This document shows positions 2,689 to 23,800 of a DNA stretch of 23,800 bases, piece after piece. The notes below the pieces were generated by a model. That model was not told the origin of the DNA and did not search any database. It saw only the letters and a list, made by a program, of their open reading frames with translations. The stretch is from positions 1 to 23,800 of the IMG/VR virus record IMGVR_UViG_3300034110_000126. One strand, 5' to 3'. The stretch comes from a virus. Position 1 is the first letter of the stretch, and each line of letters opens with the position of its first letter. The position numbers and the translations under genes are program-made.

Positions 2689-4523
2689 GCGAGCTCACCA
2701 AATATAAAAAACTTTCTCAATTAGAGCATATCAGAAAGCGGCCGGGCATTTATATCGGAAACATCAACAAGACTGAATCTGTTCAGTGGATTGTTGATAA
2801 CAACAAAATGCAACAGAAAGAAGTTGAGTGGAACCCTGGTGTGTTGAAACTGTTTGATGAGATTATCTCAAACAGTGTGGATGAACACATCCGTTCAGGC
2901 AAAGTAAATTCTATCTGGGTTACGTTACATCCAATGACAGGTGAGATTGTCATTTCAGACGACGGCGGTATTCCTGTAGAGAAGCATCCTGAATATGGTA
3001 CATACATTCCAGAGATGATCTTCGGTGAGTTAATGTCAGGCTCTAACTTCGATGACGATGATCGTACCACTGCTGGCGTTAACGGCTTAGGCTCCAAGTT
3101 AACCACAATCATGTCAACTCACTTCAGAGTTGAAACGTGCGATGGTAAAAATAAGTTCACACAGATTTTTTACAACGGCATGACTGAGCGTTCTGCCCCT
3201 GCAATCCAACCTAATACACAAAAGGGCACGACTATCACATTCATTCCAGACTATGACTACTTTAAGTCTAGTATGGATGAGAACATGGATAAGATCGTTA
3301 AACGTGTCTACGATGTTGCCGGGTGTAATCCAAATATCACTGTCCACTTAAACGGTGCTAAACTGAAGATCTCTAAGTTCAGTGACTATGTTACGTTATA
3401 CAAAGAGAAGTTCGTTCTTGAAGAAAATGCAGACTTTAGCATAGCATTATGTGCTTCATCAAACGACACATTCACTCAGATCAGCTTTGTTAACGGTGTA
3501 GACACATACAACGGGGGCACTCATGTAGACTATGTGACTAACCAGATTGTCAACAAGTTACGTGAGTTGATTAAAAAGAAACATAAGATCGACTGCAAGC
3601 CCAACATCATTAAGCAGCAACTGTTCTTGATTATGAAGTGTCGTATTAACGCACCCCACTTCAACTCACAAACAAAAGAGTTCATGTGTTCAGAAATACG
3701 TGACTTCGGTACTAGCTACACACCTTCAGACAAGTTCATTAAGCAACTGTTTGAGTCTGAGATTGTTCAGAAAGTGTTGAACTGGGTGGAAGCAGAAAAG
3801 CGTAGAGAAGAGCTGGCGGAACTGAAGAAGCTGAACAAACAAACTCAGACCAATAACTTTTTGAAGCGTATTGCTAAGTTTGACGACGCCACAGGCACCG
3901 ACAGAAGTAAATGCGTGTTGGCATTGTGTGAGGGTGACTCCGCTGCTAAGACGTTACTGTCAGCACGTGACCCTAAGGTCTTAGGTGTGTTTCCTTTACG
4001 TGGTAAGTTTATTAATGTCCGCGATATTGAGATTAAGAAACTTGCATCCAATGAAGAGTTTCAAAACTTCATGGCAATCATGGGCCTTAAGATTGGGCAG
4101 AAAGTGAATAGCCTGGACGAGTTACGCTTTACAAAGATTCTGATGTGTACGGATGCGGACCCTGATGGTCAACATATCTCAGGCCTAATTTTTAACATGA
4201 TTAACGAGTTCTGGCCAGAGCTATTCACTTTAGGTGTTGTTCATAAACTGAATGCTCCATTAGTGATTGCTAAGACAAGTAAGAAGACTTACGAGTTCTT
4301 CACATCAGATGAGTATCATCAGTGGGCAGAGACTGCCAACAAGCACTCTAAAGACTATTACAAAGGCCTTGGTACATATCAGACAGCTGACTTCAAACGA
4401 TTCTTGACTGATGTGAAATACACTGTTAAAATCACAGTTGTAGACAAAACAGACATTGATGCTTTAGACATTGCATTCTCTAAGTCTAAAGCAGACGAAC
4501 GCAAGGAGTGGTTATTACAATGA
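2685..4523 (+). CDS. 39: DNA topoisomerase II large subunit (T4 gp39/gp60-like, unsplit)
   Basis: ATPase plus TOPRIM subunit of a type IIA topoisomerase, expected to drive ATP-dependent strand passage during phage replication. Visible motifs in order: GHKL ATPase motif EIISNSVDE (59-67, Glu59 and Asn63), DDGGIPV (92-98), GVNGLGSKL (131-139), transducer VNGVDTYNGGTHVDYV (268-283), QTK loop (328-330), TOPRIM EGDSA (415-419), PLRGKFINV (436-444) and TDADPDGQHI (488-497). Its 612 residues include both the ATPase and TOPRIM regions in one chain; in T4 these are split between gp39 and gp60. The start overlaps the HNH-like gene by four bases, and the stop overlaps the medium subunit start. Confidence 0.95.
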   Translation: MSELTKYKKLSQLEHIRKRPGIYIGNINKTESVQWIVDNNKMQQKEVEWNPGVLKLFDEIISNSVDEHIRSGKVNSIWVTLHPMTGEIVISDDGGIPVEKHPEYGTYIPEMIFGELMSGSNFDDDDRTTAGVNGLGSKLTTIMSTHFRVETCDGKNKFTQIFYNGMTERSAPAIQPNTQKGTTITFIPDYDYFKSSMDENMDKIVKRVYDVAGCNPNITVHLNGAKLKISKFSDYVTLYKEKFVLEENADFSIALCASSNDTFTQISFVNGVDTYNGGTHVDYVTNQIVNKLRELIKKKHKIDCKPNIIKQQLFLIMKCRINAPHFNSQTKEFMCSEIRDFGTSYTPSDKFIKQLFESEIVQKVLNWVEAEKRREELAELKKLNKQTQTNNFLKRIAKFDDATGTDRSKCVLALCEGDSAAKTLLSARDPKVLGVFPLRGKFINVRDIEIKKLASNEEFQNFMAIMGLKIGQKVNSLDELRFTKILMCTDADPDGQHISGLIFNMINEFWPELFTLGVVHKLNAPLVIAKTSKKTYEFFTSDEYHQWAETANKHSKDYYKGLGTYQTADFKRFLTDVKYTVKITVVDKTDIDALDIAFSKSKADERKEWLLQ

Positions 4524-12317: not shown

Positions 12318-12795
12318 GCGTCTTATCATTCAACGCATGTCTTTACGTGCTGTAGCAATTGCTAACCGTTATATTTTGAACTCGTATGAGTACGAGTTCC
12401 TTCTCAACATAAGCTCTGAATTCACGCTGAAGAATTTAACAGAACTCAACGATAAGCTATACATGGCTGCAAGAAGCCAGTATGTTGCTGGATTGATTAT
12501 CGACCACACTGAAAAACAGTTACACATTAATGCACTGCTTTCTCACTTCGCATTAAAGCCGGCAATTAGACTGGCATCTAATTGTTCTGCGTATACAAAT
12601 GATCCTAAATTCCCAGTGGTAGTCGGACATCCTTATGCCGGCCTAACACCAGCAGAAGCATTTGCTAAAGCAGAGTCCGATAACAACCATTGGGCCAGTG
12701 TTTATGGCGACAACCACTATCAGTTAAGCATTGCAATTACTAACAAAATTTCTGCAATGATCCGTAAATTAGAATCCAGAGGTAACTTGATATGA
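12304..12795 (+). CDS. Hypothetical protein, divergent member of a three-gene tandem family
   Basis: A 163-residue protein starting at ATG 12304 with GGGAG about 8 bases upstream; it overlaps the preceding gene by 14 bases. I recognise no characterised family. The second half has YTNDPKFPVV (about 106-115) and ASVYGDNHYQLSIAITNKI, in the same order as the YSG/YTG...FPVP and EYGEMRKDLAKF elements of the next two genes, so it is probably a divergent paralogue. The N-terminal ~30 residues are basic and hydrophobic. It is an accessory cassette gene. Confidence 0.6.
   Translation: MWAIKRLIIQRMSLRAVAIANRYILNSYEYEFLLNISSEFTLKNLTELNDKLYMAARSQYVAGLIIDHTEKQLHINALLSHFALKPAIRLASNCSAYTNDPKFPVVVGHPYAGLTPAEAFAKAESDNNHWASVYGDNHYQLSIAITNKISAMIRKLESRGNLI
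12379..12398. repeat. Short perfect inverted repeat inside a coding region
   Basis: AACTCGTA (12379-12386) and TACGAGTT (12391-12398) pair perfectly around TGAG, with one more G-C pair outside. It lies within the codons for NSYEYEF. It could be an internal mRNA hairpin or an accident of the repeated Tyr/Glu codons. Confidence 0.4.
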
Positions 12796-13247
12796 AACAT
12801 TTACACCATATGAAATTTTGGACGCACCCATGCGTGTCTTTCTTCTTTCCTAAGACTCAAAACTTATGGGATAGTTTTGATCCGAGTGTGAAAGCAACGT
12901 TAAACAGTATGCTGGACACAGACAAATCTATTGATCGCTGGCTAGAGTATCTTGATAGATGGTTAGACCGATGCATGAACAACCAGCTCCGTGGTGGACT
13001 CTGTATTTCCTTATTATCAACTGGCATAGCAACACACCACATATTTGCCGAGTGGGAACATTATACTGGTCGATCCAACTTTCCAGTCCCTTACCCATCA
13101 GGTAAGATGGATCCTGGTAACGCTTACACTCACCATAACTTGAATGGCACCTTGTTTGAGGGTGAATATGGGGAGATGAGAAAGGATTTGGCAAAGTTCT
13201 TCCACAAAGAACTAACAACGGCCTTAAAGCAAATCAGAGCTTTATAA
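12792..13247 (+). CDS. Hypothetical protein, tandem paralogue of the next gene
   Basis: A 151-residue protein whose ATG overlaps the previous stop (ATGA), with GAGGT about 9 bases upstream. It is clearly related to the following gene of equal length: GLC near residue 70, then W-HYTGRSNFPVPYPS, an L-N-G-L/Y-G patch, and GEYGEMRKDLAKFFHKEL close to the C-terminus. The block of Tyr/Trp, FPVP and YGE-RKDLAKF is the family signature. The protein is rich in Trp and His and has no signal peptide or membrane segment. No function is assignable. Confidence 0.65.
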   Translation: MKHLHHMKFWTHPCVSFFFPKTQNLWDSFDPSVKATLNSMLDTDKSIDRWLEYLDRWLDRCMNNQLRGGLCISLLSTGIATHHIFAEWEHYTGRSNFPVPYPSGKMDPGNAYTHHNLNGTLFEGEYGEMRKDLAKFFHKELTTALKQIRAL

Positions 13248-13262
13248 AAGGATAACATTGCC

Positions 13263-13718
13263 ATGAGCAGCATAGCACATTTTCTACGTTGCAAAAAATC
13301 TTACTTCACTGGGTGGGGCGCTAAACGTATAGCACTTGAAATTTCATCAGAGGTTCTAAGGGTTATCGAGAAACTCGCAAGTGATACACGAACAACAAGA
13401 GAGTGGATAAACATACTGAAAGCCGTTCCTGCTGATTTAGAACAGCGTGAATATCACAACGGGCTATGTGCATACTTCCGAAAGATAGGTGTATATGGTA
13501 TTCGGGACATGTTCCCTCTATGGTATCATTACTCAGGTGATAAATGTTTCCCTGTACCTGATCCAAGCAACATTTTATTAGCTGACCAAATATGGTATCT
13601 CAACGATGGTTATTATACAGGCCCGTATGGCGAACTCAGAAAAGATCTAGCCAAGTTTATTGTGCATGAGCTTGTGGGTGCTCTAGAGATGATAGATAAG
13701 TTTAAAGAGAGGGGTTAA
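13263..13718 (+). CDS. Hypothetical protein, tandem paralogue of the preceding gene
   Basis: A 151-residue protein sharing with its upstream neighbour GLCAYFRKIG, LWYHYSGDKCFPVPDPS and GPYGELRKDLAKFIVHEL in the same order and spacing; the N-terminal third differs. AAAAGG lies about 9 bases before the ATG. Its stop codon lies in the loop of the hairpin that ends the cassette. It is cytosolic by sequence, with no known family. Confidence 0.65.
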   Translation: MSSIAHFLRCKKSYFTGWGAKRIALEISSEVLRVIEKLASDTRTTREWINILKAVPADLEQREYHNGLCAYFRKIGVYGIRDMFPLWYHYSGDKCFPVPDPSNILLADQIWYLNDGYYTGPYGELRKDLAKFIVHELVGALEMIDKFKERG

Positions 13719-13732
13719 TCCCCTCTCGTTAT
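13707..13732. terminator. Bidirectional terminator hairpin between convergent units
   Basis: GAGAGGGG (13707-13714) pairs with CCCCTCTC (13720-13727) around TTAAT. It ends the forward accessory cassette and sits just past the stop of the reverse tape-measure gene. On the reverse strand it is followed by TTTAAAC; on the forward strand by GTTAT, a weaker U-tract. Confidence 0.6.
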
Positions 13733-15657
13733 ATCCCGCCAAGTTTCAATCTAGGGTTGTTATTCCCTGTATTCCTATCTTGTACGATGGTGTTATTGAC
13801 AGATGTTGAATTTGATGTTGGAGCGTTAACTGCTATAGAGTTGGCTTTCGCTTTAGCCGCCTGTTCAGCAATTATCTTTGTCGCTAACGCATCTATCTCA
13901 GCAGTTTTGTATTGGTTGCTAATTGGATCTGTAATCTCACCAAACGCCCTACCATATTGCTCACGTTGAGTTTTAGCAGTCTCTTGATACTCAGGGCTGC
14001 TATAATCAAAATTAGGATCTGTAGGTACATAAGTGTCGCCTTGTACTGTAGATGCCATCCAATCAATTAAACTAAACTCGTTAAAGTTCTTTATCCATTG
14101 GTCTACCTTACCAGTTATTGCGTGGTACAAGTCTCTAAACTTGTTTACAATCTCATCATACACCGTTACCACACTTCCAACAGCTTCATCGTATGCGGAC
14201 TCAATTGTAGTAGCAATAGCATCAATAAAGTTCATGATATGAGTTGGTATTGCCATAAAGACGTCATACACTTTCTTCGTCATATTTTCCATGTCAAACA
14301 AGTCATACCCAAACAACTCTGCAATGGAATCAAATATACCCATAATACCACTAATGATATTAGAGATACCTACCATGATCCTGTCGCCTAAGGACACATC
14401 ACCTTCATTTTTACCTAAGAACTCTGCTGCATCGAAGAACCCTTCAAAAAAGTCATATATCATTGTCAATACTGCTAATGGTAATAACAGCTTGCTACCC
14501 ACTCTCACTAACATTTTACCAAAGGTGCCAATGAACCCAAAGAATGCTTTAATAGGTGATACTAATGCAGTCAACAAGCCAGCACCTGTACCAAGAATAG
14601 ATAACATACCTAAGGCACGAATTGCTGTCAGTATACCTAAAAACGGGTTGCCTTTTTGCTCACTTACTGCATTAGACTGAACATGACCTGGAGCAGAATA
14701 AGGGGTTAGCCTTCCAGTGGTTCTAGTTAACTTCTCACGTCTCAGTCTGGCATTTTCGGCACGTCTCTCTTGCTCTGCCAAACCAGTAATTGAGTCCACT
14801 ATCCTATCAGCAGATTCTTCTTGTACTCTTACCAAGTCTTCTTGTTGTTCGATAGGATCATTAGCAGCGCTCAACTGAGTAAGGTCACTAACAATCATTT
14901 CACGGTTAGACTCTAACCTTTCCAAAATAGAATTAGATACAGTGATTGTGCCTTGGTCTTGAAGTTGAGATGCAGGGTTAGCAACGTCGTTATTGATTAG
15001 GTCTTTAAGCCCATTAATCTCTTTTTTAATTTCTTCTAATAAAGGCGTATACAACCCATGAGTTCTGGATTTACGCTCTTTCTTAGGTATTGCTGCCTCT
15101 TCTTTTTTAACCACTTCTTCTTGTTGGTCAACCAGCTCTAATTGAGAATTGATGAACTGCTCTTGCTGTTCTAAAATTGCAAGTCGACGTTTCCGTTCAT
15201 CGAGCTCTCTAGCCTTAGCAGCCTTTCTAGATGAATTAATGTCACGGACAATTTTAACACCATAACCCAATATAGGGTTGGCTGTCATTAATGCACCAAT
15301 CAAAGTGTCAGTGGATGGGAAAGAACTCTTGATTGTATCAATAGCCTTATCCATGTTGCCTTGAGTCTTGTTAGACTTATCCATCATGGCTTCTAACTGA
15401 TCAATTACATGGCTATAGGTACCTGCAATTTGCCCTGTTCTAGAACCAGCATTAATACCACCTGCAACCATGTCCTGTCTAATTTGTTTTAATTCTTTAA
15501 CAGCACGGTTGGCAAAGAAGTCTGAACCAGATGACTGCACATGCAATGCTTCTCTTAAGATACTCTGCAACTGTGCTATGGTCTGGTTAGGGTCTGTATT
15601 GCCTCTAAGACTGGCACTTCTTTGTGCTAGCCTTAGATTGTTTAATGTATTAATCAT
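13729..15657 (-). CDS. Tape-measure-like tail protein
   Basis: A 642-residue protein with the architecture of a tail tape measure. The N-terminal half is helical and polar, including a charged coiled-coil stretch around residues 145-200 (DERKRRLAILEQQEQFINSQ and onward). A hydrophobic Gly/Ala/Leu-rich centre follows, about 335-410 (FLGILTAIRALGMLSILG...LLLPLAVL), with further helical segments at 425-520, and a polar Asn/Ser-rich C-terminus. Such proteins set tail length and are held by tail chaperones until the tube polymerises. The size is near T4 gp29 (about 590), though I cannot show homology to gp29. AGAGGT precedes the ATG. It is the second gene of a reverse operon, 16 bases after its partner, while its likely chaperones lie on the forward strand. 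Confidence 0.65.
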   Translation of the reverse strand: MINTLNNLRLAQRSASLRGNTDPNQTIAQLQSILREALHVQSSGSDFFANRAVKELKQIRQDMVAGGINAGSRTGQIAGTYSHVIDQLEAMMDKSNKTQGNMDKAIDTIKSSFPSTDTLIGALMTANPILGYGVKIVRDINSSRKAAKARELDERKRRLAILEQQEQFINSQLELVDQQEEVVKKEEAAIPKKERKSRTHGLYTPLLEEIKKEINGLKDLINNDVANPASQLQDQGTITVSNSILERLESNREMIVSDLTQLSAANDPIEQQEDLVRVQEESADRIVDSITGLAEQERRAENARLRREKLTRTTGRLTPYSAPGHVQSNAVSEQKGNPFLGILTAIRALGMLSILGTGAGLLTALVSPIKAFFGFIGTFGKMLVRVGSKLLLPLAVLTMIYDFFEGFFDAAEFLGKNEGDVSLGDRIMVGISNIISGIMGIFDSIAELFGYDLFDMENMTKKVYDVFMAIPTHIMNFIDAIATTIESAYDEAVGSVVTVYDEIVNKFRDLYHAITGKVDQWIKNFNEFSLIDWMASTVQGDTYVPTDPNFDYSSPEYQETAKTQREQYGRAFGEITDPISNQYKTAEIDALATKIIAEQAAKAKANSIAVNAPTSNSTSVNNTIVQDRNTGNNNPRLKLGGI

Positions 15658-16349: not shown

Positions 16350-17297
16350 ATGTCTACATATAAACAATTTGCTGCTCATATCCAAAAGCATGGGCTCGCA
16401 AGGACTAATAGATTCAAAATCATTATTCCGCTTCCAGAGAAGTTGAACGAGAAGTTCAACTCAGTGTCAGCATCACCTAACAAATCTAAACTAGCAGAAG
16501 CAATTGGTAGCATAGTGAAAGTGGTTCGTATATTCACAGGTCCAGGTAATACTGAATTTACCAGAGGACTTGAGATTATGTGTATGCAAACAGAGCTGCC
16601 GGGTAAGACTATCAACACGTCTGAAGGTAAGTATAACGGTGACGTCTTCAAGGTAGGTAGTTCAATTACATACGGCAACCAACAGTTCACTTTCAAAGTG
16701 TCACAAGACATGTATGAAAAGAACATACTGGACGCATGGATGAATTTGATAGTGGATCCTATCACACATGAAGTTGGCTACTTCAAAGACTATGCTGTGT
16801 CTATTACTGTATTCCAGTTAGACGCGGAAGATAACATTACTCACGGTGTAATATTACATGACGCATTTCCTGTTATGACTAACCCAATGGTGTTGTCTAA
16901 TGCTGAGATGAATAACGTGCATGAATTAATGACTCAGTTCGCCTATAAGAGATGGGAGAACTATGACGTTTCACAAGAGAAAGACAACTTCTTCGGCAGC
17001 CTATCTAGAACTCCATTAGGCCCTTACCTAACACCAATATTATCCAATCCAGTTGTGCAACGTGGTTTAGAGTACCTTAAGCAAAATACTGGGCTGGACC
17101 TAGAAGGTGAAGGTGTCAACGTATACAACCAGGTTAATAAAATTATAGAGAACTCTGTGGGCTTATCTGCAGGCAGAACGGTGTCATTAATCAATAAGAC
17201 TAAGGTTAGCATGGAAAGTAATAACAAAGTCACCCCTAATGATAAATCCAAACTGTCTACATATATAAACGGAGCTCTTAACATTTTTGGAGGATAA
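16350..17297 (+). CDS. 54: Baseplate tail-tube initiator (T4 gp54-like)
   Basis: A 315-residue protein; T4 gp54 has about 320. The N-terminus reads HGLARTNRFKIIIPLP, a typical opening of T4-type tube-fold proteins. Then come EIMCMQTELPGKTIN, a VFKVGSSITYGNQQFTFKVSQD strand pair and KNILDAWMNLIVDP, all characteristic of the tail-tube family shared by gp19, gp48 and gp54. The C-terminal ~90 residues form a less conserved extension. Length favours gp54 over the shorter gp19; gp48 (about 364) is the alternative. In T4 this protein caps the baseplate hub and starts tube polymerisation. It is the first gene behind the forward late-type promoter and is followed after three bases by the gp26-like gene. 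Confidence 0.75.
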   Translation: MSTYKQFAAHIQKHGLARTNRFKIIIPLPEKLNEKFNSVSASPNKSKLAEAIGSIVKVVRIFTGPGNTEFTRGLEIMCMQTELPGKTINTSEGKYNGDVFKVGSSITYGNQQFTFKVSQDMYEKNILDAWMNLIVDPITHEVGYFKDYAVSITVFQLDAEDNITHGVILHDAFPVMTNPMVLSNAEMNNVHELMTQFAYKRWENYDVSQEKDNFFGSLSRTPLGPYLTPILSNPVVQRGLEYLKQNTGLDLEGEGVNVYNQVNKIIENSVGLSAGRTVSLINKTKVSMESNNKVTPNDKSKLSTYINGALNIFGG

Positions 17298-17300
17298 CGC

Positions 17301-17993
17301 ATGTTACCTAAATTAACCCACACATTACACACTCACCGCCTAGTAGGCTTAGGCAAAGAAATTAAGTTTCGTGCATTCACCAACAACGAACAAAAGACAC
17401 TGCTATTAGCAAAACAAGAGAAAGAGAACAATCGCGTTGTAATCGACGCAGTTAAACAAATTGTGAGTGCATGTACCCTAGGCAAATTAAACGTAGATCT
17501 CTTGTCTACGTTTGATTTAGAGGACTTATTTTTAAGAATACGTTCGAAGTCTGTGTCTGAGGTTTCTAACATTAGATATCGCTTCGACCATGAAGAAGAT
17601 GGTAAGCCAGTTTCTAAGTTTATTGACATCAGTATCAACTTGGATGAAGTTAAGGTTAAGACGGACCCTAACCACACTAACAAATTCATGCTGACTGATG
17701 ACATTGGTATTCAAATGAAATATCCATCGTTCGAAGCATCTGAATATCCGGACGATGAACTGCCAATGAGATGTATTGAATCTGTATTCACAAAAGATGG
17801 TGACGTGACGTATATCAAGGATGTCTCGGAAGCTGACCTGTTAGAGTTTTATGGCGACATTGATATGAAAGGGCTGTTAAAGATTAAAGACTTCTTTGAC
17901 ACTATGCCTAAATTATCTCATGTCATTAAAGTGCCATTACCTACGGGCGAAACTCGCGAAGTGGTATTAGAAGGTTTGCAAAGTTTTTTCTAA
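17301..17993 (+). CDS. Baseplate hub / tail assembly protein (T4 gp26-like), likely frameshift donor
   Basis: A 230-residue protein with a pattern I recognise from T4-type baseplate hub proteins (gp26-like): FRAFTNNEQKTLLLAKQ (24-40), VDLLSTFDLEDLFLRIRSKSV (64-84), an ISINLDEVKV strand, DDIGIQMKYPSFE and a helical C-terminus. Length fits that family (about 208-235). Such proteins are needed for hub assembly and may act as tape-measure chaperones; the latter is inference. GGAGGA precedes the ATG by six bases. The final codons AGT TTT TTC run into TAA, creating the heptamer TTTTTTC at 17984-17990; a -1 slip would join this protein to the next small frame and give a 293-residue fusion. Confidence is good for the tail role, moderate for the gp26 identity. 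Confidence 0.7.
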   Translation: MLPKLTHTLHTHRLVGLGKEIKFRAFTNNEQKTLLLAKQEKENNRVVIDAVKQIVSACTLGKLNVDLLSTFDLEDLFLRIRSKSVSEVSNIRYRFDHEEDGKPVSKFIDISINLDEVKVKTDPNHTNKFMLTDDIGIQMKYPSFEASEYPDDELPMRCIESVFTKDGDVTYIKDVSEADLLEFYGDIDMKGLLKIKDFFDTMPKLSHVIKVPLPTGETREVVLEGLQSFF

Positions 17994-18016
17994 TAGCGAT
18001 GTCCCATGAGTCGCTA
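17984..18016 (+). promoter_or_regulatory. Putative programmed -1 frameshift site (TTTTTTC plus hairpin)
   Basis: The zero frame reads T TTT TTC TAA, an exact X-XXY-YYZ slippery heptamer (17984-17990) directly before the stop. After a -1 slip the codons are CTA, ATA, GCG, ATG, in frame with 17999-18181 and without a stop. Three bases downstream, TAGCGA (17994-17999) pairs with TCGCTA (18011-18016), a possible stimulatory hairpin that also covers the ATG at 17999. The spacer is shorter than usual. Confidence 0.7.
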
Positions 18017-18181
18017 ATATCTTATTACAAAGACAACCTTAATACCGTGTTTTATAAAGATGCAGGGTTCGTGAATAACTTTACAGTGTCCGAACTCGAC
18101 TCTTTGTTACCGTGGGAACGCGATGTATACATCATGCTAATGCGAGACAAATTAGAACAACAAGCAAAACAATCGTCTTAA
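17999..18181 (+). CDS. Small tail-assembly partner, probably expressed by -1 frameshift from the gp26-like gene
   Basis: If translated alone it has 60 residues: an N-terminal SYYKDNLNTVFYKDAG segment, then FTVSELDSLLPWERDVYIMLMRDKLEQQ, a helix with the LPWERxxY motif seen in small proteins near T4-type hub genes and reminiscent of the C-terminal extension of tail assembly chaperones. No Shine-Dalgarno sequence lies before the ATG (the preceding bases are TTTTTTCTAATAGCG) and the ATG falls in a predicted hairpin, so independent initiation looks poor. It is in the -1 frame relative to the upstream gene and reached by the slippery heptamer. Termination-reinitiation coupling is the alternative. 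Confidence 0.68.
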   Translation: MSHESLISYYKDNLNTVFYKDAGFVNNFTVSELDSLLPWERDVYIMLMRDKLEQQAKQSS

Positions 18182-18194
18182 AGAGAAGGCAACT

Positions 18195-19958
18195 ATGTCA
18201 AAGATTAAAGTCAATTTGATATCGGATACTGCTAGCACAGTTACAGTTCCTACCACGGAACTTGTCTATGTTAAAGAAGTGCCCGATTTAAAACAAAAGT
18301 TTGTTGACTTAGCTTCCAACACGTCTACCGTTAAGGTAGGTGGTATTGAGGCTAAGGCATTCAGAATTCTAGATGGTATTAAGCAACTTCCATCTACACC
18401 TAACGCCACACTCACAGTGAAAGGCTTCTATGTAGGGACATCTACTGGCGGTGGTGATTTCTATTACGATCCTAATATGAATAAGGCGAGCCATAACGGC
18501 GGTACAATTATTGCACCTGAGGCAATTGCTTTATGGGATGGCAGTGATTTGAATATCGAAACCTTATTGGATTGGGCTGGTACTGGATATGGTTGTTTCG
18601 TTAGAGCCAACTACACAGCAATCAATATCACCATGTTCGGTGGCACTCAATCAGTAAACGTTGACTGCGGCTACATTGCCAACAAGATATTCTCTAAGTT
18701 GGGCGCAATAGACTTGTCCTTCCCTAGAGGTGCTTGGAATATAGCAACAGGTATTAAATTACTTAGAGGTTGCAGTATATCAGGTGCATCTGTATTTGAC
18801 GACGCCACTGCTACCAAGTTAGTTAAAGCACCTAACCTTAATCAGCCAGTTATAGCAACTGAAAAATACTATGGTGGAGTGATGACACATTATTACTCAA
18901 TCACTGGTATTTGTATTGAAGGTAACCGCCTGACTAAAACCAATACTTCAGAAATGAAAGAAGCAATTGCATGGTGGGGCGTATTTGTTGGTTCATATAT
19001 TGACAACGTCTTTATCTGGAACAATTACGGCACAGGCATCAGTTTTGAATATTCGTATGACACCAAGATTGGGCTATTATGGGTTAACGCATGTGAAGTG
19101 GGTAATGGTGCTGCTGTAGAGATAGACCAACAATTACACAATCCTGGCGGGCCTACTGGTCTATTAGAGTTTGATTGTTTATACACAGAGAACGTCTATC
19201 GAGTTAGTGCCGATGGTGACCCAAGAACCACACCTAGCAACCGTGGGCATGGTATTAAAGCAGGCATGATATATCGTGTGTCTATAAACAACCTTCACCA
19301 AGAAGCAGTCGATGTGGGCTTCCTGTTAACTCATGGTGTTTGTTATAGCATCAACATCCTAAATCACTCAATCAGCTGGTGTGGTAGACCAACAGGATAT
19401 AAAGCAGTTCATTATTGGAACGATGTTGTTCCTCATATCTACAATGTAGGCCCAGTTATTATAGGTGACAATATTGCAGGATATGCATTTTTTGATTGCT
19501 CTACTGATGTATTCAACGGTGGGCAGGTTTCAAAAATACCAGTGAACACTGAGAGATGGGGTGGAATGTCGTTTGTGTCCTTAGCTGGGCAGAAGGCAGA
19601 TTTACATGGCGTTCAATTGGTGGGTAGCGTTACTAGACGTTCAATAGGTAACCAGGCATCCAACTATGGTAAGATGCAAATTACTTCAGACAATGTTAAT
19701 AGATACCATTATGAAAGAGCCAATGGCGACTACTGGCAATTTGGTAGTACATCTAACCAAGCAGCAAATGCTGAAGTAGACTTCTTCAGAATTGAAAGTT
19801 ACGGCAATGCTGGTGATAGAGTTACATTCCTAAAACCTTTTGTGATACCAACATTAAGTGTTACTGACTTCACGGATGCGTTATATATCACTCCAGGTGG
19901 TGAGCTTAGAATTCGTATCGGTGCTGGTACATTCAAAATAAACTTGACTGCGGTCTAA
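18195..19958 (+). CDS. Tailspike / tail fibre protein 1 (beta-helix)
   Basis: A 587-residue receptor-binding protein. Residues about 57-137 carry the shared anchor: DGIKQLPSTPNATLTVKGFYV, GGGDFYYDP, HNGGTIIAPEAIALWDGS and a WAGTGYGCFVR end. The rest is rich in short beta segments with Asn/Gly turns (SITGICIEGNRL, YIDNVFIWNNYGTGI, YSINILNHSISW), as in right-handed beta-helix, pectin-lyase-like spikes; the final ~50 residues form a compact C-terminal element. A host-polysaccharide depolymerase or binder is likely but no active site can be named. AGAGAAGG precedes the ATG. It is the first of three tandem spikes, 14 bases after the small tail-assembly partner, so probably in the same late operon. 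Confidence 0.8.
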   Translation: MSKIKVNLISDTASTVTVPTTELVYVKEVPDLKQKFVDLASNTSTVKVGGIEAKAFRILDGIKQLPSTPNATLTVKGFYVGTSTGGGDFYYDPNMNKASHNGGTIIAPEAIALWDGSDLNIETLLDWAGTGYGCFVRANYTAINITMFGGTQSVNVDCGYIANKIFSKLGAIDLSFPRGAWNIATGIKLLRGCSISGASVFDDATATKLVKAPNLNQPVIATEKYYGGVMTHYYSITGICIEGNRLTKTNTSEMKEAIAWWGVFVGSYIDNVFIWNNYGTGISFEYSYDTKIGLLWVNACEVGNGAAVEIDQQLHNPGGPTGLLEFDCLYTENVYRVSADGDPRTTPSNRGHGIKAGMIYRVSINNLHQEAVDVGFLLTHGVCYSINILNHSISWCGRPTGYKAVHYWNDVVPHIYNVGPVIIGDNIAGYAFFDCSTDVFNGGQVSKIPVNTERWGGMSFVSLAGQKADLHGVQLVGSVTRRSIGNQASNYGKMQITSDNVNRYHYERANGDYWQFGSTSNQAANAEVDFFRIESYGNAGDRVTFLKPFVIPTLSVTDFTDALYITPGGELRIRIGAGTFKINLTAV

Positions 19959-19967
19959 GGATTAAAA

Positions 19968-22163
19968 ATGTCATTGATTAACGTCAATAGAATAGAAACT
20001 GTTAATGGCGCATTTGGTGTGAATACAGTGGACTTATTAAAAGTCCAAGAAATACCAGGTGTCGTCCAAAAGACCACAGTTTTAGAATCAGCATCTCTTG
20101 TAGATGGCATTAAAAATTTAACAGCAACACCTAACGTATCAATTAGAGTTAAAGGCTTTTATGTCAACTCTGATATAGGTGGGGGATTGTTTGTATACGA
20201 ACCTGCTAGAAATAAATTGGAGCACAATGGTGGAACAATTATAGCACCGGAAGCAATTGCTGCATGGGATGGCAGTGCAGGTGGTCTTAGCACATTGTTA
20301 AGATGGTCTGGTACTGGTAACGGATGCTTTGTTCGTATATTAGATAACTCAGCTCATCTATCATGTTCTTTATTTGGTGCCCACACATCTAGCCCTGATA
20401 ATAGATTAGCAATCCAACATTGTTTGAATGTTGCTACTTCTATGTCTAAAGTAGCATTCTTAGATCCATCGCCTAATTTTTATATGATCAACTTGACTAT
20501 CTATATTCCATCAGGTGGTCATTTAGCAGGCGCAGGTGGATTACAGAAGCTGACTAAGGTTAAACGTGTTAACGGGCATTATACTGACCTATTCATGGCC
20601 GGCGTACACACTGAAGGCGTTAACGGTTCTTATGGTGAGATGGTAATACCTGGAAGAAACGGTATGCCATACAACTCAGCCAACATCGGTAAAGATGTGA
20701 AGCTCACTGGCATCTACATTGATGGTAATGGCATTAATGCTGGGTATGCACCTGAGCTAGGCGCAGGCACTGGATATAAAGGCAGTAACGTCTACATTCG
20801 TTATGTAGATGGTGTTACTGTAGATGACTTGTTTTCTGAATATGCCTCGAACGATTGTTGTTATGTTCAGTATTGCAGACGCATTTCAATCACCAACTGC
20901 AACCTGTCTAGAAATAAATTGACAGGGAATGTGATAGGTGCTACAAGAAATGGTTTATCAGTTGCTGGTACCTTATCCGGCTTTGGTTATCCAACATCAG
21001 ATTTCCTATACGTCAACAACATTGTGGCGGAAGAGACTGAAGACTTAGGCGTAGCAGTGATATTTAAAACAATTGCATCTAATCCTTCAAGTCTATGTGG
21101 TACTGCTCAGATTAGTAATATCACCACAAGAAGAAATGCTACTTATGGCTTTGCTGTTGAAATTTCAGGTGCAGACACCCCAGAGCAGCCTATACGTGAT
21201 ATGATCAATATCTCAAACATCCTGTCTATTGAAGATAGCCAACGAACAGGTGAGTCTTATGGTTCAGTGCTGATATCTTATAAGACTAAGAATATTAATG
21301 TCCATAACATTTCTATTCGTGGAGCAAGGTCACATGGCCTGATATTGGCAGGTAACCAGAATATCAACGTGTCTAATATTTTTGTAGACGGGTACGGTTT
21401 AGGTAACTGGTCAAGCAACATGATAGGCGTATTTGCTTATGGTGTAGGTAGCTCACCTTCTAAAGCATTGAACATTAGCAATGTGCAAGTCTCAGGTGGT
21501 ACTGGTAGAACTTACGATACATACGGTGTATCACTAACTGGATTTGATAGAATTAACGCATCTAACTTTGATGTGGATGGTAATACTGCAACGTCATCTA
21601 CTGTTATTGCTGCAATCAACTTTGACTGTAAGCATTTAAAGGCAACTAATATCCATGTTCAAAATGCTGCCACGTTTGGTATTATTACTAGAGCATCGGT
21701 TGATCTTAGAATGTCAAACATCAGTGTGATAAACAGTGGGCAGGCAGCAATCGCAGGCCAACGTGCGGGCATTTATGTTAGAAGCGGCACCAACAGAACT
21801 GGCTCCATCACAAACGGCAATTTCAGTGATTACCAATCATCGCCTACACAAAACATTGGTATCCTATTAGAAGCAAGCACAACGGATGCAATATCTATAT
21901 CTGAATGTACAGCAGTAGGTAACAGTGCTCAGCCTTTAGCCAACTTAGGTATGCCTAAAGCAAGAATATTCAACAACAGTTTCCCTCATAACGTACCATC
22001 TTCATCTACTACCCCATTCAGTGTGGGTGCTACTTGGCAGAATGGTTTACGTTTAGGTAACTCGACATTATTCGTAGATGAGACTAACTGGAAAGTTCGA
22101 ATTAAATTAAATGGTACACCTACTTCAGAAACTGATGGTGTAATCGTCGGCACTCAAACCTAA
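19968..22163 (+). CDS. Tailspike / tail fibre protein 2 (beta-helix)
   Basis: A 731-residue paralogue of the preceding gene through the N-terminal anchor: DGIKNLTATPNVSIRVKGFYV, GGGLFVYEP, HNGGTIIAPEAIAAWDGS and WSGTGNGCFVR (about 45-123). From about 130 on it is a long beta-helix: a LAIQHCLNVA segment at its entry, then many repeated strand-turn units such as NISNILSIEDS, NINVHNISIRGARSHGL, NINVSNIFVDGYG and LRMSNISVINSG. The C-terminus (VGATWQNGLRLGNSTLFVDE...) is a small beta domain of the kind that caps or trimerises spikes. The body is unlike that of spike 1, as expected for different receptor specificities. AAGGA lies 6 bases before the ATG. Confidence 0.82.
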   Translation: MSLINVNRIETVNGAFGVNTVDLLKVQEIPGVVQKTTVLESASLVDGIKNLTATPNVSIRVKGFYVNSDIGGGLFVYEPARNKLEHNGGTIIAPEAIAAWDGSAGGLSTLLRWSGTGNGCFVRILDNSAHLSCSLFGAHTSSPDNRLAIQHCLNVATSMSKVAFLDPSPNFYMINLTIYIPSGGHLAGAGGLQKLTKVKRVNGHYTDLFMAGVHTEGVNGSYGEMVIPGRNGMPYNSANIGKDVKLTGIYIDGNGINAGYAPELGAGTGYKGSNVYIRYVDGVTVDDLFSEYASNDCCYVQYCRRISITNCNLSRNKLTGNVIGATRNGLSVAGTLSGFGYPTSDFLYVNNIVAEETEDLGVAVIFKTIASNPSSLCGTAQISNITTRRNATYGFAVEISGADTPEQPIRDMINISNILSIEDSQRTGESYGSVLISYKTKNINVHNISIRGARSHGLILAGNQNINVSNIFVDGYGLGNWSSNMIGVFAYGVGSSPSKALNISNVQVSGGTGRTYDTYGVSLTGFDRINASNFDVDGNTATSSTVIAAINFDCKHLKATNIHVQNAATFGIITRASVDLRMSNISVINSGQAAIAGQRAGIYVRSGTNRTGSITNGNFSDYQSSPTQNIGILLEASTTDAISISECTAVGNSAQPLANLGMPKARIFNNSFPHNVPSSSTTPFSVGATWQNGLRLGNSTLFVDETNWKVRIKLNGTPTSETDGVIVGTQT

Positions 22164-22195: not shown

Positions 22196-23800
22196 ATGTC
22201 TCTTTTAAAGGTAGATAACATAGAAAACCTAAGTTCAACGGTTAACGTGAGTACCGATGACTTAGGTTTGGTACCGGCTTTGAAACTCATCAATGGGATT
22301 AAGAATTTAATCCCTATTGTTGGGACTAGCATGTTAGTGAAAGGCTTTTATGCTAATACCGACACGCAAGGGTTTGGTCATTTTTATTACGACCCTACCT
22401 TAAGTAAAACAAAGCATAACGGTGGAACTGTAATAGCGCCGGAAGCAATTGCTGCATGGGATGGTACTCCTACTAATGTAGCAACCCTTTTAAATTGGAC
22501 AGGTACAGGTAACGGTTGTTATGTCAGAGTATTTGATGTGTCAAATGGCGTGCATGCTAGTTATTTTGGTATGCTAGTATCCGATGATGGTAATAACTTA
22601 TTAGCCCTTCCTGATGCAACCGCTTCCATTAATGCTGCCATGAAATATTGCAACTCTAGGTATTCTGAAATCACCAATGAAGGCTATTACGGCACCACCA
22701 ATTTTAAATTAATTCTACCAAACGGTAATGCAAAAACATCGGCAGTGATTCAAATCCTTCGTGGGGTGGATGTTAAGAGTGTGGGTACTACCCTATTTCA
22801 ATGCAGTACATACAAAGCACATAATTTCATGGATTGTTTGACTGAACGTCTATTTGATTTCGAAATAGAAGGTGTTAAGTTAGATGGATATCAAACATGC
22901 TTCCGCGTTAAGAACGACGATGTAACCGACCATTCTCAATGGAGATTTAAACGGTGTGGATTTAAAGATGTTGATGTCGGCATAGACACTGTTAATTACA
23001 CAGTTTCTAGATCTGTAATATTGACGATTGAAGACTGCAAAACCACCATCGGCGTTAAGCAAATGGTTAAATCATTTTGTGATATGACACATATTGTAGG
23101 TGGTTGGTTTACACATGACCAGAACAGCCCTTGTATCACTTTTGCTGGACGCCTGTGTGTTGAGGGTGGCATTTATGTTCCTATCTACAACGACCCTAGC
23201 CCAAGCAAGACAAATAAAATGTGCTGGTATCAAGCCGAATTAGCAGACGAGCCTGCAGGTGGTTCATTCCGTGGTTGCCGTTTTGGTGCTGAATTTGGTG
23301 GAGCGACTGTTCTTTATGTTAAGTCTAACGCAGCGCTGAATGAAGGTAACGGGTTGGCTTCAGGCAGCACACAACAGTTTAATTTCAGCGGGTGTCAACT
23401 GTCCTCTAGTAACGTATTCGACCCTGACAATCTAAATAAGAAGTATCGTGGTGTTGTTGTTTTTGGTGTTTTCAATAACGGCGGTGTGTCGTTTGAAAGC
23501 TGCACAATATCAACAGACTTAGGGCCAGCGGCTTTAGGTTATGATCAGTCGCGTGTCGTTGTTGATTATGGTAATGTGGCAGATACTGAAGCGCCACACA
23601 ATTTCGTCATACAGTTTGATGAATCCACGTGGAGATCTGCTAACAATGGAGCAAACCGTTCAGCTAGTAATAAAATGATGCAATATATTGGCAATGCCAA
23701 GACACGTTCTATTTTCAAAAATATATCTGCACATGGCCATTTATTAGTGGGGTTAACCACCGACACAACGAAGAATAAATCGACATTCAAAGTGAAATTA
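22196..23800 (+). CDS. Tailspike / tail fibre protein 3 (3' end outside window)
   Basis: The frame is open from ATG 22196 to the end of the window (535 codons, no stop), so the gene is truncated by the window edge. AGGAA lies about 7 bases upstream. Residues about 33-112 repeat the anchor of spikes 1 and 2 in slightly divergent form: NGIKNLIPIVGTSMLVKGFYA, GHFYYDP, HNGGTVIAPEAIAAWDGT and WTGTGNGCYVR. The stretch before it is the shortest of the three. The body shows beta-helix-type repeats (IEGVKLDGYQTCFRVKN, FKRCGFKDVDVGI, VSFESCTISTD). It is probably co-transcribed with spikes 1 and 2; a weak octamer TATAAAGA (22169-22176, one mismatch to the T4 late element) precedes it. Enzymatic activity cannot be judged. 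Confidence 0.8.
   Translation, partial: MSLLKVDNIENLSSTVNVSTDDLGLVPALKLINGIKNLIPIVGTSMLVKGFYANTDTQGFGHFYYDPTLSKTKHNGGTVIAPEAIAAWDGTPTNVATLLNWTGTGNGCYVRVFDVSNGVHASYFGMLVSDDGNNLLALPDATASINAAMKYCNSRYSEITNEGYYGTTNFKLILPNGNAKTSAVIQILRGVDVKSVGTTLFQCSTYKAHNFMDCLTERLFDFEIEGVKLDGYQTCFRVKNDDVTDHSQWRFKRCGFKDVDVGIDTVNYTVSRSVILTIEDCKTTIGVKQMVKSFCDMTHIVGGWFTHDQNSPCITFAGRLCVEGGIYVPIYNDPSPSKTNKMCWYQAELADEPAGGSFRGCRFGAEFGGATVLYVKSNAALNEGNGLASGSTQQFNFSGCQLSSSNVFDPDNLNKKYRGVVVFGVFNNGGVSFESCTISTDLGPAALGYDQSRVVVDYGNVADTEAPHNFVIQFDESTWRSANNGANRSASNKMMQYIGNAKTRSIFKNISAHGHLLVGLTTDTTKNKSTFKVKL

Follow-up and report, generated by a model that had tools for sequence, protein, structure and literature searches.

The question raised by this locus is whether a gene resembling gene 26 of T4 is translated into a single protein or into two, the second being reached by a -1 ribosomal frameshift at the very end of the reading frame. 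We have analyzed a stretch of 23,800 nucleotides (IMG/VR record IMGVR_UViG_3300034110_000126, positions 1 to 23,800; hereafter the window), for which a search for near matches at the DNA level among phage records found none. The gp26-like gene (17301..17993, plus strand, 230 aa) ends in the zero frame with AGT TTT TTC TAA, the stop codon lying at 17991-17993. The slippery heptamer T TTT TTC (17984..17990, plus strand) covers the last two sense codons and fits the X XXY YYZ phase of a -1 slip. A ribosome shifted back by one base would enter the new frame at the codon CTA (17990-17992) and find it open to 18181, giving a predicted fusion of 230 + 63 = 293 residues with no interruption. This is also the sole in-phase T TTT TTN in the 20 window genes tested, which together comprise 7,382 codons. 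An earlier note on this DNA had described exactly such a heptamer joining the gene to a small downstream frame, with a 293-residue fusion beside the 230-residue protein; position, phase and arithmetic were all right. Our analysis indicates that, through this site, a tail assembly chaperone (TAC) is very probably translated in two forms, one short and one long.

The strongest evidence comes from the comparison with relatives. We collected 95 loci, namely the window, 86 IMG/VR relatives found by protein patterns that omit the terminal Phe pair, pf16, S-CAM8 and six named phages, most of them more distant; T4 and eight Ackermannviridae-type phages are counted apart. By requiring less than 50% shared 4-mers the set was reduced to 79 non-redundant loci. 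An in-phase T TTT TTN within the last codons was present in all of them (95/95 and 79/79), and the reading-frame offset and the extension were kept as well, as the note had proposed to check. The last base of the heptamer was C in 72 loci, T in 18, A in three and G in two. Where the heptamer ends in A or G, the second codon (TTA or TTG) specifies Leu instead of Phe: the nucleotide run is kept though the amino acid changes. Elsewhere in the same homologous genes the motif appeared only 18 times in 18,770 codons. Codon usage would predict T TTT at this position in about 0.41 of the genes, which puts the log10 P of the observed conservation near -35, a figure uncorrected for relatedness. The phages with the heptamer include Kyanoviridae (S-PM2, S-CAM8), pf16, Stenotrophomonas phage YB07 (54% GC), Pootjesviridae (phiM9, P10VF) and VH7D, a member of the Straboviridae.

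The sequence reached by the slip is itself a recognizable protein domain. The -1 extension (17990..18181, plus strand, 63 codons and a stop) corresponds to the C-terminal part of gp51, and we designate it TAC-C. The small frame matched phrog_634 (baseplate hub assembly catalyst, gp51) with an E value of 1.3e-12 over profile positions 60-112 of 121. In T4 gp51 the same family is matched by residues 147-246, and the frameshifted extensions align with its residues 198-249. The Pfam family PF12322 spans residues 1-201 of T4 gp51 and 1-206 of T4 gp26. T4 gp51 thus consists of a PF12322 domain plus the extension and is therefore equivalent to the -1 fusion encoded in one gene, T4 gp26 being the unshifted form. 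Gene 26 of T4 ends with GAG TTC TTT GAG, where the heptamer is absent and the -1 frame closed, as expected since gp51 is there a separate gene. Among the 78 complete cases the extension measured between 56 and 69 codons. In S-CAM8 the deposited genome has no annotated gene exactly at the frameshift extension (3706-3885), a gap that is likely to be common in cyanophages.

The same stretch could be read as a gene of its own. A gene finder would call a 60-codon ORF from the ATG at 17999 to 18181 (plus strand), and gp26 could end at the TAA at 17991 with ribosomes re-initiating at that ATG, only 6 nt past the stop, to make a 60-aa gp51-like protein. Databases do carry a separate gp51 for S-PM2, phiM9 and P10VF. 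However, no Shine-Dalgarno (SD) precedes the ATG, as had been pointed out before, whereas the neighbouring genes at 17301 (GGAGG) and 18195 (GAGAAGG) have one. Across the relatives, 38 of the 78 complete extensions lack ATG, GTG or TTG in their first 12 codons, and a start together with an SD-like 4-mer was found in only two. The homology of the open -1 frame starts right at the heptamer and not at the ATG, T4 gp51 is a full fusion and not a small stand-alone protein, and re-initiation would leave the conservation of the heptamer unexplained. We therefore consider it very improbable that two separate proteins are made here.

The eight Ackermannviridae or Ackermannviridae-like loci are the exceptions. 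They keep a homologous -1 frame without the canonical heptamer and read [ACG]TT TT[CT] at its position; several have a TAATG stop-start overlap, an arrangement that suits translational coupling, and others, such as Kuttervirus SE14, have no ATG. These phages may depend on re-initiation or on a slip that is weaker, and the frameshift device is therefore not universal among the relatives.

As to what might stimulate the slip, two elements were considered. The earlier note had placed the ATG of the small frame in a hairpin just after the heptamer. A hairpin of 7 bp is indeed predicted in the window (17994..18016, plus strand) with part of the ATG inside, at -7.8 kcal/mol and a z score of -2.4 over 40 nt, falling to only -1.25 over 70 nt. 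It is not conserved, as pf16 lacks that form and no structure was predicted in S-CAM8, although the sequence after the heptamer folded on the whole a little more stably than control windows did (mean z -1.0 vs -0.38). A conserved hairpin as the main stimulator was rejected, given that it is absent or different in several relatives. The better candidate, judging from sequence comparison, appears to be an SD-like element, GAAGG in the window (17970..17974, plus strand), located 9 nt upstream of the heptamer. GAGGG or GAAGG is found at the same distance in most loci, where it encodes a conserved Glu-Gly. The choice of synonymous codons is biased there: GAG is used for Glu in 33 of 52 cases against 459 of 1827 gene-wide (p 1e-8), GGA or GGG for Gly in 46 of 77 against 172 of 508 (p 2e-5), and for 65 of 79 genes the predicted anti-SD pairing was stronger than under the synonymous null, all three figures being uncorrected for shared ancestry.

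These observations bear on another way of obtaining the fusion, in which RNA polymerase slips on the six or seven T and the mRNAs with an extra or a missing U encode the long protein. A T6-T7 homopolymer is present in every case. Nevertheless, a run of six T is short for polymerase slippage, and it stops at six (TTTTTTC/A/G) in 62 of the 79 non-redundant cases, with the exact ribosomal slip phase preserved. The SD-like element, 9 nt away and favoured by synonymous codon choice, makes sense for ribosomes only and so counts against the polymerase. Transcriptional slippage does take the place of the ribosomal slip in certain IS elements and secretion genes (PMC5009743), but for this locus we regard it as very improbable. 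Finally, the heptamer might simply follow from conserved Phe-Phe codons in AT-rich phages, with a decayed gene behind it. This idea has in its favour the AT-rich genomes and a C-terminus that is mostly Phe-Phe, but it is already contradicted by the counts and has practically no chance of being correct, because an internal conserved Phe-Phe pair of the same genes is written TTTTTT in only 2 of 62, the run persists with Leu codons and in pf16 and YB07 (52-54% GC), and the extension is conserved as a protein across families.

Returning to the ribosomal slip, the remaining question is what the two proteins would do. The gp26-like protein matched PF12322 (T4_baseplate, gp26/gp51) with an E value of 1.4e-49 and 169.2 bits against a cut-off of 24.5, and in the profile search it also matched phrog_150. 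We folded it with AF2 (pLDDT 92) and, separately, a natural gp51. The top hit of the gp26 model among 996 solved chains was the TAC of HK97 (2ob9), with 84 of 107 residues aligned, an rmsd of 3.7 and a Z of 7.5, below the threshold of 8; the next unrelated row had a Z of 5.2. Such a Z would be weak alone, but the TAC family had been predicted beforehand. Phage TACs also appeared weakly in BFVD for the same model (prob 0.93-0.99 but E > 0.05). Foldseek alone found no significant match of the model in the PDB, the gp26 profile gave nothing significant against PDB sequences, and VIA-align of the gp51 model returned no TAC row and did not recover 2ob9. The proposal that gp26-like proteins are tape-measure chaperones with a conserved recoding device is thus well supported by the conserved site, the gp51-family extension and the apparently HK97-like fold of the model. 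We consider it very likely that the gp26-like gene encodes a T4-type TAC-N, the short chaperone, and that a -1 slip yields a minor 293-residue TAC-NC (gp26-gp51), which would act in tail assembly.

We infer that at T TTT TTC some ribosomes would shift back one base, with the Phe tRNAs of the P and A sites re-pairing on TTT TTT, and would read the 63-codon tail to give the long form at a low rate. The SD-like element 9 nt upstream and the stop codon immediately behind would probably help. If the lambda pair gpG/gpGT is a guide, the short form may coat the tape-measure protein and the additional domain of the long form may recruit tail tube subunits. T4 would make the same pair of products from two distinct genes, 26 and 51. 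We lean slightly towards a wider reading. In it, the recoding signal of T4-type TAC genes is built like that of dnaX, with T TTT TTN preceded at 9-10 nt by an SD-like element and followed by no structure that is strongly conserved, and the T4 genes 26 and 51 descend from one frameshifting ancestor that was split when it was duplicated.

The genomic context agrees only in part with what is usual for TACs. Directly upstream of the gp26-like gene lies a tail tube-family gene (16350..17297, plus strand; phrog_3629, E 1.7e-87). The usual order, common but not defining, has the TAC on the same strand as the tape-measure gene and directly upstream of it, and the expectation that the slip would sit just before that gene did not hold in the window. 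The genes that follow are tail-fibre-like, and the candidate tape-measure gene (13729..15657, minus strand, 642 aa) is upstream and on the opposite strand. It matched pf16_158 by phmmer with an E value of 7e-85, its tape-measure profile match being weak (phrog_4200, E 0.0018). In pf16 and in another of the loci (L011) the TAC is followed immediately by a gene for a 650-aa protein homologous to that of this minus-strand gene, which suggests that the candidate in the window was moved by inversion or transposition relative to them. The three consecutive tail-fibre-like proteins (18195-19958, 19968-22163 and 22196-23800) match each other with E values of about 1e-31 to 1e-34 and share N-terminal family matches, so that this trio directly after the TAC gene is likely a duplicated set. 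Another pair of adjacent and mutually related proteins, of 151 aa each, is found at 12792-13247 and 13263-13718 (E about 1e-15).

For many phage genomes these results would correct the annotation, which lists gp26 as a baseplate hub protein and either overlooks the extension or presents it as a gp51 catalyst in its own right. They provide a clear and testable slip signal with a proposed upstream stimulator. Frameshifting is reportedly conserved in several T4-like groups, T4 itself using two genes. The work of Vladimirov, Gautam and Davidson (Virology 2022, 566:9-15), as cited for T4-like TAC genes in the articles on PRFect (PMC10885494) and on phage Adele (PMC12846349), described a short and a long TAC gene in some T4-like phages and, according to the latter, poly-T -1 signals in their TAC-N genes. 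As T4-like TAC frameshifting was published in 2022, the device found here was already known in kind, and the link that we draw between the classical genetics of T4 genes 26 and 51 and the lambda-type tail chaperone system was proposed in that work; the broad count of homologues and the SD-like element may add to it.

Compared with known systems, the locus is closest to the TACs of that 2022 set, by all indications the same gene family with the same proposal of a short and a long chaperone, the present one belonging to an uncultured pf16-like phage. T4 gp26 and gp51 are alike in that both carry PF12322, gp51 being the gp26 domain plus the frameshifted tail, but in T4 they are two separate, divergently placed genes and the heptamer is absent. 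E. coli dnaX additionally uses a downstream stem-loop, whereas T4-type TAC loci have no strongly conserved downstream structure. What they share is a slippery heptamer with an upstream SD-like stimulator (PMC5009743). In lambda the tape-measure gene comes immediately after the chaperone gene, which is not so in the window. The lambda slip sequence differs as well from T TTT TTC. The likeness to gpG/gpGT is in the -1 slip close to where the short chaperone gene ends, which produces a minor long form, the short form of lambda coating the tape measure and the long one recruiting the tube protein (PMC5009743). The TACs of Vandenendeviridae and Andersonviridae belong to other phage families and have the motif GTTTTT instead of the T6 heptamer, but there too a poly-T motif at the end of TAC-N is the site of a conserved -1 frameshift (PMC12846349).
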